Positions 2,829 through 4,721 of a DNA stretch of 33,494 nt are shown here, in pieces (position 1 is the first letter of the stretch; each line of letters starts with the position of its first letter). A model generated the notes under the pieces. The model had not been told where the DNA came from. It did not search any database and saw nothing but the letters and a program-made list of their open reading frames with translations. A program made the translations under genes and the position numbers. The DNA is from Pedobacter schmidteae (GTDB taxonomy: Bacteria > Bacteroidota > Bacteroidia > Sphingobacteriales > Sphingobacteriaceae). The stretch is taken from positions 1 to 33,494 of the forward strand of contig CAMDKO010000022.1 in the NCBI GenBank assembly GCA_945901155.1, in the 5' to 3' direction.

Positions 2829-3380
2829 TTATTTTTTATAGGGGATGTAATTGAAGCTGGCATTAACAGCTATTTTTTCAGCTATTTTCTTAAAAACAAG
2901 TTTAGGAATATCGATTTTATGATCAATCAGCATTACATCAAATGCTGTTTCAAGTACTAATGTATTTTCAGTAACAGTTATTTTTCCGCTAAACTTCCTC
3001 TCCTGATCAACCCCATGAATAGTCAATATCCCGCTAGCATTCACAGAATAAACTCCAGGTTTGCCTAAATCCAGAACTTCAATAATTTTTCCTTTAAATG
3101 TGGCATATGGAAATTTCTCGCTTTCCAGGTAGTTTTCATTAAAATGCTCCTGCATCAGCTTGTTTTTAAATTGAAAGGATGATACCGGAATGCGAACTAC
3201 GAGCTCACGGTTTGATAGATTAATTATCGAATTGGCACGTGTATTTTTTGCATCAATATCCTGAAGCGGAGTTTTAGAGAAAAAACTAACGTCACTTTTA
3301 TTGCTGCTGTAAAGTTTATTTTGTGCTGAAGCAAAATTGAAAGTCAGAATAAAGGCTACTAGTATCAAATATTGCTTCAT
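2829..3380 (-). CDS. YceI-family periplasmic protein
   Basis: A 183-residue exported protein with a clear signal peptide (MKQYLILVAFILTFNFASAQ) and a YceI-like lipocalin fold: SNKSDVSFFSKTP near the start, NYLESEKFPYATFKGK in the middle and the GILTIHGVDQERKF segment. YceI proteins form a barrel that binds isoprenoid quinones or other lipophilic molecules; some are tied to electron transport. Its ATG overlaps the stop of the upstream DUF5777 gene (ATGA, 3377-3380), so translation is coupled. It is the last gene of the Rieske/DUF5777/YceI operon. The ligand here is unknown. Confidence 0.88.
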   Translation of the reverse strand: MKQYLILVAFILTFNFASAQNKLYSSNKSDVSFFSKTPLQDIDAKNTRANSIINLSNRELVVRIPVSSFQFKNKLMQEHFNENYLESEKFPYATFKGKIIEVLDLGKPGVYSVNASGILTIHGVDQERKFSGKITVTENTLVLETAFDVMLIDHKIDIPKLVFKKIAEKIAVNASFNYIPYKK

Positions 3381-4252
3381 GGATTAACCTTCTTTTTTTT
3401 CTCAAATGAGAAAGTTCTTGAAATATTAAATCCGAAGTGAATATCTCCGCTTCCCCAGCTACCATCGGTTTCAGTTATAAATTGTCTTTCAGTCATGCCG
3501 AATGAATTGGTAAAGAGCAATTGAAAAACATGTCCGCCGGTTTCAAGATCAAAACTGAAAGCTAAATTATTTTTATAGTTATCATTAATCTGATTAGGAA
3601 GTACATAGTTGTATTCACCATTGATTGATGTACGTTTAGTCAATTTCATTCTACCACCTATTCCAGAGGCAAAAACTGTCCTATTGTCAGTAAATATATC
3701 TGCTCTATTTCTATGAATTAAAGCCGGACTTATCTGTAATGAGAATGCCTCGCTAAACTTTCTGGCAATGAGGATTTGAGCTGTATAACTACTTCTGTTA
3801 AATGCTGAAAGTTTCGGGACGGTTTTTTGTGTGCGAATGGCATATCCACCAAATAAAGTAACTGAAACGGGTATATTTATGGAACCTGTGCTTTGTCTGA
3901 TCAGTTTATATTTGGTGAAATAGTCGAATACTTTCTGAAAAGAACTCCTTCCCATTCCTATCATGAACCGGTCATTGATTCCATATTCTAAGCCTAAACG
4001 ATTTGTTGCTGCATCGAGTCCAAAAAAATCTTCAAATCCTCTATTTAAGCGATCAAAACGGTGAGAAATAATAAAATCTAAATTATTCTTACCAACAGTT
4101 TCAACAGAATGTCCGTTAATAATTCGTCTTGCCTTGAATGTAGCTGTCCTGACAAAAACTTCATTACTATCTGAAACAAGTTTCATTAGGTCTTCCTGTG
4201 AAAATGCAGAAAATGGAATCAATAGATAGAATAGCAAGAAAATCTTTTTCAT
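3377..4252 (-). CDS. DUF5777-family outer-membrane beta-barrel protein
   Basis: I set the start at ATG 4252 (291 residues). It places a signal peptide (MKKIFLLFYLLIPFSAFSQ) at the N-terminus and leaves a 22-base gap after the Rieske gene with AAGGAA in it, whereas the longer frame from 4285 would overlap that gene. The mature protein matches DUF5777: TFKARRIINGHSVETVG, then FDRLNRGFEDFFGLD, then beta strands ending in HFGFNISRTFSFEKK. Alternating strands and the aromatic C-terminal end suggest a barrel in the outer membrane. Function is not established. Its position between a Rieske protein and a YceI protein suggests a redox or lipid/quinone-linked envelope role. Confidence 0.85.
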   Translation of the reverse strand: MKKIFLLFYLLIPFSAFSQEDLMKLVSDSNEVFVRTATFKARRIINGHSVETVGKNNLDFIISHRFDRLNRGFEDFFGLDAATNRLGLEYGINDRFMIGMGRSSFQKVFDYFTKYKLIRQSTGSINIPVSVTLFGGYAIRTQKTVPKLSAFNRSSYTAQILIARKFSEAFSLQISPALIHRNRADIFTDNRTVFASGIGGRMKLTKRTSINGEYNYVLPNQINDNYKNNLAFSFDLETGGHVFQLLFTNSFGMTERQFITETDGSWGSGDIHFGFNISRTFSFEKKKKVNP

Positions 4253-4274
4253 AATACGTACAATTTCCTTAATA

Positions 4275-4721
4275 TCAGGCTTCAAATACTCTCAACGAGC
4301 TTCCAGATAATGTAGTACTATATTTTTTTAAATTAGAGGAGGCAGGACCTTTAGTTTTCGTTCCATTTGAATCGAAAACTGATCCATGCGCGGCATCAGT
4401 AAGGGAACAAGGGAAAGTGTTATCTCCTGCATTATAAATTACCGGATTGCCCTGGTGCGTACAAGCACTAGAAAGTGCGATATAGTTTGACCCATTTTTT
4501 GCAATAATAATACTATTCATGATTGTCCAGCCTTTTGTACTGATATCAGTATTGGTGCTTACATTTAATGTAAAATCAACTTTTGAACCTATTACCGGAC
4601 TTGTTGGATTACTTGTTGTTGGTGTAGCCGAGTCACTTTTACCGCATGCTCCAAGGCATGATGTGATTACTAGTGAGCCTGCACCTAAACCTAAGGCAGC
4701 GAGAAAATCTTTGCGTTCCAT
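4275..4721 (-). CDS. Rieske-type [2Fe-2S] lipoprotein with atypical ligand spacing
   Basis: A 148-residue lipoprotein: MERKDFLAALGLGAGSLVITSC gives a lipobox with Cys22, and the preceding motif resembles a degenerate Tat/Sec signal. The C-terminal half is a Rieske domain. The first ligand pair is Cys87-Thr-His89. The second reads Cys105-x6-His112 followed by GSVFD, where the usual motif is C-x2-H. Both cysteines that form the disulfide in classical Rieske proteins (CTHxGC and CPCH) are absent (Asn92 and no CPC). Spacing between the halves (15 residues) is normal. It is first in the operon, upstream of the DUF5777 barrel and YceI. Probable periplasmic electron carrier, or a Rieske fold that has changed its cluster. 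Confidence 0.82.
   Translation of the reverse strand: MERKDFLAALGLGAGSLVITSCLGACGKSDSATPTTSNPTSPVIGSKVDFTLNVSTNTDISTKGWTIMNSIIIAKNGSNYIALSSACTHQGNPVIYNAGDNTFPCSLTDAAHGSVFDSNGTKTKGPASSNLKKYSTTLSGSSLRVFEA

Follow-up and report, generated by a model that had tools for sequence, protein, structure and literature searches.

A conserved gene module of the Bacteroidota joins DUF5777 and a YceI lipocalin to an exchangeable putative electron carrier

An isoprenoid is present in most solved structures of YceI-family lipocalins, and the Neisseria protein holds ubiquinone-8, according to the accessible text of PMC9113575 (cf. the accessible part of PMC8981238). Mutants of BcnA, a YceI protein, and of LcoA, a cytochrome b561, are described in the former as having increased lipid peroxidation, and its authors suggest that the cytochrome b561 re-reduces the quinone carried by the lipocalin. 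Cbp2D of Cellvibrio, a protein tied to cellulose use, combines a YceI-like domain with c-type cytochrome domains, as portrayed in the accessible portion of PMC8981238.

Three genes in the window, by which we mean the whole stretch of 33,494 nucleotides analysed here, bring a YceI lipocalin together with a DUF5777 protein and a Rieske-like protein (Table 1). In the ORF reading all three lie on the minus strand and follow one another, in the direction of transcription, as Rieske-like, DUF5777 and YceI. The first two are separated by a 22-base gap (4253-4274), and the ATGA at 3377-3380 is common to the TGA of DUF5777 and the ATG of YceI, which gives a 4-base overlap. These co-directional genes and their spacings had been described in a sequence-only reading of the same DNA, with which both the coordinates and the Pfam families agree. 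The mechanical DUF5777 ORF begins at a TTG at 4285, and the ATG at 4252 was taken as the start. Pfam assigned DUF5777 to PF19089 (E 3e-91, 305.5 bits against a curated cut-off of 23.1), YceI to PF04264 (E 9.7e-13, 49.2 bits against 23.7) and the Rieske-like protein to PF00355 (E 5.8e-7, 29.8 bits against 20.3). The window sequences of the three operon proteins contained no CxxCH, and a Pfam scan of these genes and the two flanking genes found no cytochrome b561.

Table 1. Features of the Rieske-like/DUF5777/YceI operon, in window positions
Feature	Position	Strand	Description or basis
Rieske-like [2Fe-2S] lipoprotein gene	4275..4721	-	148 aa; Tat-like N-terminus, lipobox L-G-A-C26
DUF5777 outer-membrane barrel gene (barrel predicted)	3377..4252	-	291 aa from ATG at 4252; 12 predicted strands
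YceI-family lipocalin gene, divergent subfamily	2829..3380	-	183 aa
Rieske cluster-binding stretch, C87-T-H89 ... C105-S-L-T-D-A-A-H112	4386..4463	-	sequence
Rieske four-residue insert L107-T-D-A110, C-x2-H to C-x6-H	4392..4403	-	alignment A3

Export signals were judged by eye from the sequence of all three proteins, DUF5777 and YceI having Sec-type starts and the Rieske-like protein a Tat-like RKxFL start with an L-G-A-C lipobox; these starts suggest the export and the location of each. TatC is present in the genome itself (an assembly of 2.74 Mb in 191 contigs), in line with a cluster protein that is exported already folded. The five nearest named DUF5777 relatives, three from Daejeonella, one from a Sphingobacterium thalpophilum MAG and one from a Sphingobacteriales MAG, are 81-89% identical and have the same gene order adjoining HisS, which makes Daejeonella the probable genus of the window.

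DUF5777 was present in 153 of 395 sampled Bacteroidota genomes. Neighbourhoods were mapped for 221 DUF5777 genes, drawn from 140 fetched stretches hand-picked from the listed DUF5777 matches with strong matches favoured, from the window, and from 80 named loci that scored best for alignment A1, itself built from Rieske-linked members. The 140-stretch and 80-locus sets overlap, some of the 80 being the same genus genomes, and in L127, L147, L160 and L234 no DUF5777 stood at the expected position after ORF picking. Linkage was counted within three genes on the same strand, and 517 genes of the same stretches lying more than six genes from any DUF5777 served as control. YceI was found near 184 of the 221 DUF5777 genes and near 4 of the 517 distant genes. 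The corresponding counts were 142 and 22 for cytochromes, a class that here takes in any CxxCH ORF besides members of the cytochrome cluster and thus chance motifs, in the control too; 59 and 0 for Rieske-like proteins, the overall share of 59/221 being inflated because A1, which chose the 80 loci, consisted of Rieske-linked members; and 196 and 22 for either carrier. YceI was the direct same-strand neighbour of DUF5777 171 times, with a median gap of 3 bases and 162 of the gaps within 100 bases, and Rieske 57 times, with a median gap of 12 bases and 55 within 100.

The sequence-only reading had seen in these three genes a possible redox or lipid-carrier module, to be regarded as a coincidence of gene order if DUF5777 rarely lay with Rieske or YceI genes elsewhere. 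The counts for YceI and Rieske, and those for c-type cytochromes, which that reading had also wished to see, show that the arrangement is not coincidental. Gene order does differ between lineages, as chance placement without a functional link would have it: Rieske-DUF5777-YceI is the order in most Daejeonella and in Cytophagales, and YceI-DUF5777-Rieske that in other genera of the family and in three records of the genus (L060, L072 and L078). Dyadobacter fermentans (L211) shares the order of the window. Membership, however, is constant while the order changes, and with either carrier near 196 and YceI near 184 of 221 genes, against 22 and 4 of 517, chance is contradicted and hardly deserves further consideration. 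YceI and any redox neighbour were both lacking at 12 of the 221 genes, and 25 had a cytochrome but no YceI.

The carrier, in contrast to YceI, depends on the lineage. Among 21 loci of the genus set Rieske was found in 18, YceI in 21 and the cytochrome cluster in 3; in the family set (n=43) these numbers were 14, 37 and 26, and among 77 phylum-wide picks they were 5, 57 and 57. Rieske is thus a local variant of a broader rule and the minority carrier, cytochromes being the usual one. The idea of a redox module therefore stood, since a carrier lies near most DUF5777 genes, but Rieske as its typical partner did not hold outside some lineages. A search of titles and abstract openings in the open-access literature found no description of the module and no paper naming DUF5777. 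We conclude that the module is real and conserved, and undescribed within the literature searches made; the families of its parts are known, and what is new is their combination and the exchange of the carrier.

Small proteins of a single cluster, with a median length of 131 residues, are the carrier met most often. A C-x(2-6)-C-H motif was present in all 113 members (113/113), as CxxCH only in 53, Cx4CH only in 36 (L067, L095 and L102 are examples), both in 17 and other spacings in 7. Cluster identities were taken from one representative each, and the name 'cytochrome' rests on the haem motif, because the single member scanned matched Cytochrome_CBB3 below the cut-off (17 of 27 bits). A simple lipobox pattern was seen in 14 of the 25 cytochrome-cluster starts printed.

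Both kinds of carrier lie near only 5 of the 221 DUF5777 genes. A strict mutual exclusion of Rieske and cytochrome, which we had considered, was softened by these five loci, for example the order Rieske-DUF5777-YceI-cytochrome in L220, L221 and L250. Two genomes of the host genus, G470 and G493, have modules of both kinds, one with Rieske and one with a cytochrome, at different loci. For the tree and the conservation count, six identical DUF5777 copies were removed, leaving 215 of 221. On the tree of these 215 rows (30 without a label), a minimum of five carrier changes was counted, all of them forced by well-supported branches. A careful IQ-TREE analysis of 82 rows (4 unlabelled), thinned from the 215 to 40 Rieske-side and 42 cytochrome-side sequences, again gave five changes, with a bootstrap range of 5-5. 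Rieske-bearing groups in the tree include Daejeonella with Runella, other genera of the host family, Dyadobacter, Emticicia and Algoriphagus. Gene content thus suggests that one electron carrier was repeatedly replaced by another in the same functional slot.

The DUF5777 proteins of Daejeonella group with those of Runella and other Cytophagales, and not with the other Rieske-linked members of their own family; transfer between lineages may account for this odd grouping of sequences. A shortage of cytochrome c as the cause of Rieske use was rejected, since the genome itself has two cytochrome c assembly matches and 29 matches to Cytochrome_CBB3, of which 22 exceed the curated cut-off.

We call the carrier of the window Rieske-like because all four ligand residues are there but the second pair is C-x6-H: in the standard ligand test the C-x-H of the first pair was found and the C-x2-H of the second was not. 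This spacing was absent from the sequence-only reading. C87, H89, C105 and H112 are invariant in 23 of 23 aligned rows (A3). The predicted model has a Rieske fold, its best solved matches being 8hn2 (Z 13.3) and 5cxm (Z 12.8); mean pLDDT is 74.5, with residues 1-44 low and most of the domain at about 81 to 96. By sequence, too, the nearest solved Rieske protein is 5cxm (1.4e-17, profile A3).

C-x6-H occurs in 16 of 20 genus genomes. Among linked rows it was found in 15 of 37 (first set) and 5 of 23 (80-locus set), these C-x6-H rows all belonging to the host genus and the genomes of the two sets overlapping, and C-x2-H in 22 of 37 and 18 of 23, including the genus records with the order YceI-DUF5777-Rieske (L060, L072 and L078). 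Of 30 phylum-search loci read for spacing, two had C-x6-H, both from the host genus, so that among the Rieske sequences examined (linked rows and these 30 loci) none outside the genus has it. Such a spacing could weaken or abolish the cluster, to judge from the sequence. It could thus be envisaged that the host-genus protein has lost its cluster and is a remnant, the operon being no longer a redox system there; the departure of C-x6-H from linked rows outside the genus and the modest Pfam score (29.8 bits against 20.3) would fit such a loss. The inserted residues, however, vary (LTDA, LPAP, QQDA, LQDA, LQTA, LTGP) while both cysteines and both histidines are kept in all 16 insert-bearing genomes (16/16), and in a dead site not all of these ligands should have survived; loss of the cluster is therefore improbable. 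If the C-x6-H protein does hold a cluster, the known ligand spacing of the family widens.

Rieske subunits of the bc1/b6f type have an extra cysteine beside each ligand pair, forming a disulfide, and a protein without them may be expected to have a lower redox potential. These cysteines are absent from the window protein and from 23 of 23 A3 rows, and present in the distant linked proteins of L158 and L171.

Similar Rieske proteins were found in 281 of the 395 genomes. A Rieske protein dedicated to DUF5777 was ruled out as a description of the family, 34 of 94 related rows having no DUF5777 in their stretch of about 3.4 kb each. The Rieske tree (89 rows) had eight linkage changes, three of them forced by well-supported branches, in a tree of few columns where long branches meet. 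In the host genus, the gene for a paralogous Rieske lipoprotein of genome G537 shares its locus with thioredoxin-like, ApbE, DUF4266, DUF3570 and cytochrome b561 genes (L356 6427-10396, Pfam), a cluster that L357 resembles by lengths and sequence starts only. Another paralogue adjoins a flavohaemoglobin-like gene (L354 5398-7288). Judging by the contexts of L356 and L354, more than one envelope redox system of the host genus has a Rieske lipoprotein associated with it.

The DUF5777 protein was modelled with AlphaFold2 as a 12-strand barrel (pLDDT 89.6, pTM 0.83), and the DUF5777 profile gave no match at E 1 or better among PDB sequences. H64 and H241 are conserved at 1.00 across 215 DUF5777 proteins, and likewise F66, G78, Q120, T238, F243, G274 and F275. 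The top structural matches of the model were KdgM (Z 17.9, 167 residues aligned), FapF (17.6, 210) and NanC (17.4, 186), followed by VhGalP (16.8, 185), the COG4313 channel 4rl8 (16.5, 211) and the autotransporter NalP (16.2). With KdgM, NanC, VhGalP and 4rl8 among these matches, DUF5777 might be a channel specific for some small substrate, which YceI and its Rieske or cytochrome partner would process in the periplasm, and the accessible text on Cbp2D, with its YceI-like and c-type cytochrome domains and its tie to cellulose use (PMC8981238), points the same way. In contrast, no substrate-specific enzyme was common to most neighbourhoods in a scan of the larger neighbour clusters, and the matches also include the secretion and enzyme barrels FapF, NalP and LpxR (Z 15.1), so that we regard such a channel as doubtful. 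Matches of the predicted barrel thus mix channels, secretion barrels and enzyme barrels, and the fold does not tell the function. A known enzyme barrel was tried as an assignment and set aside, LpxR and OMPLA (Z 12.6) scoring below the best channels.

In one draft genome of the set, G488, whose Rieske protein is 92% identical to that of the window, the same neighbourhood has lost DUF5777 and keeps Rieske and YceI intact, 73 bases apart (L353 5383-6454); the single DUF5777 match of this genome (L067) belongs to the NrfD-linked type. Rieske and YceI may be the pair that is kept more tightly, or else the barrel of L067 serves both loci, and judging from this genome the DUF5777 barrel may not be essential at the locus. 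Matches to DUF5777 with internal stop codons in three genomes (G573:C98, G546:C8 and G411:C49) are probably decayed copies.

The YceI protein of the operon scores 48.9 bits, the other two of its genome 167 and 99.6, and it is the most divergent of the three. Eight PDB sequences were matched at E 0.01 or better by a profile of 32 DUF5777-linked YceI proteins; the best matches, 5ixg (1.9e-6) and 1y0g (6.7e-6), are both YceI, and several are named polyisoprenoid-binding or YceI.

Taken together, we propose, with a probability of roughly 40%, that YceI and DUF5777 form a conserved envelope redox module of the Bacteroidota which is served by an exchangeable one-electron protein and used in lipid repair or quenching. 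An electron-transfer role is likely and a quinone as the YceI ligand plausible. The carrier here would be a Tat-exported, lipidated Rieske [2Fe-2S] protein, its place being taken in most relatives by a small c-type cytochrome. The menaquinone pool, or else a periplasmic carrier, would supply electrons to this lipid-anchored protein on the periplasmic side of the outer membrane, and the YceI barrel would hold a quinone or another isoprenoid that the protein reduces or is reduced by; such an exchange beside DUF5777 is proposed because of the analogy with BcnA-LcoA and Cbp2D. DUF5777 could serve in the membrane as the docking partner of carrier and YceI, or let a small molecule pass. The sequence-only reading likewise allowed for a lipid or quinone moving across the periplasm and electrons reaching the outer membrane, which we would keep as a suggestion. 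By analogy with what has been proposed for BcnA and cytochrome b561, the likely use would be the repair or quenching of oxidised envelope lipids. ECF sigma genes, present in 45 of 141 records, may indicate stress control. A further cluster, represented in 35 records and frequently adjacent to these sigma genes, had only a weak outer-membrane-barrel match, and our guess is that it is anti-sigma-like; in L060, L078, L079 and others, the ECF sigma gene and the gene with the weak barrel match lie directly upstream of YceI-DUF5777.

In 10 records DUF5777 is linked to an NrfD/Fe-S/cytochrome set. L119, L154, L163, L185 and others have DUF5777 beside NrfD, Fe-S (Fer4_11) and cytochrome c; the records of this type also hold a predicted protein of about 290 aa and a small protein of 73-100 aa. 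An ethylbenzene-dehydrogenase-type protein is encoded at some of these loci, and L119 and L154 have a protein in which six CxxCH are combined with collagen-like repeats. The NrfD linkage and the six-CxxCH protein fit respiration or electron export better and thus speak against a repair role. They lend weight, as does the ethylbenzene-dehydrogenase-type protein, to an outer-membrane electron conduit of the porin-cytochrome type, for which a barrel with a haem lipoprotein is the general plan; DUF5777 would be the path through or along which the carrier sends electrons to the cell surface or receives them from it. In known conduits, however, a multihaem protein is enclosed by a barrel of some 20 strands or more; the predicted 12-strand barrel is small in comparison, and the window operon is without a CxxCH protein. 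It is unlikely that the module is such a conduit. It may be that one core is put to both uses, in the repair-like and in the NrfD contexts.

Beyond the envelope redox module proposed above, a bolder form of it can be put forward as a rather speculative suggestion: DUF5777 and a quinone-binding YceI lipocalin would be a fixed core, with a socket that takes an iron-sulfur or a haem protein (at least five exchanges); by way of the lipocalin the module would extend the quinone pool to the outer membrane, and the Daejeonella Rieske protein would have a working C-x6-H cluster. An operon slot that accepts iron-sulfur and haem carriers alike would show that one-electron transfer matters and the cofactor does not. 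DUF5777 carries no annotation beyond that of a domain of unknown function, and its tie to YceI and a carrier gives it a testable class of function.

When set beside the known systems, the module shares an outer-membrane barrel and redox proteins with the MtrCAB and Pcc conduits, but these have larger barrels and multihaem cytochromes, and the window has 12 predicted strands and a single-centre carrier. PetC3 of Synechocystis (5cxm) is the nearest solved Rieske by sequence, but has C-x2-H where the window protein has C-x6-H. The ApbE/DUF3570/DUF4266/thioredoxin-like flavinylation clusters are likewise an envelope electron-transfer set of unsettled function in the accessible part of PMC8238504, where YceI and Rieske are not mentioned, and the paralogous host-genus Rieske lipoprotein of L356 sits in one; they differ in that no ApbE, DUF3570 or DUF4266 model was matched by the three window proteins, nor ApbE or DUF3570 by the two flanking genes (Pfam). 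Cbp2D of Cellvibrio japonicus has the YceI-like (X158) domain and c-type cytochrome domains, but in the accessible text of PMC8981238 it is a single secreted multidomain protein with a carbohydrate-binding module and without a barrel. BcnA-LcoA is the nearest analogue: while its partner is a membrane cytochrome b561, and the accessible text of PMC9113575 makes no mention of an outer-membrane barrel, Rieske or c-type cytochrome, it resembles the present module in having a YceI protein adjoining a redox partner, in a short operon of the cell envelope.
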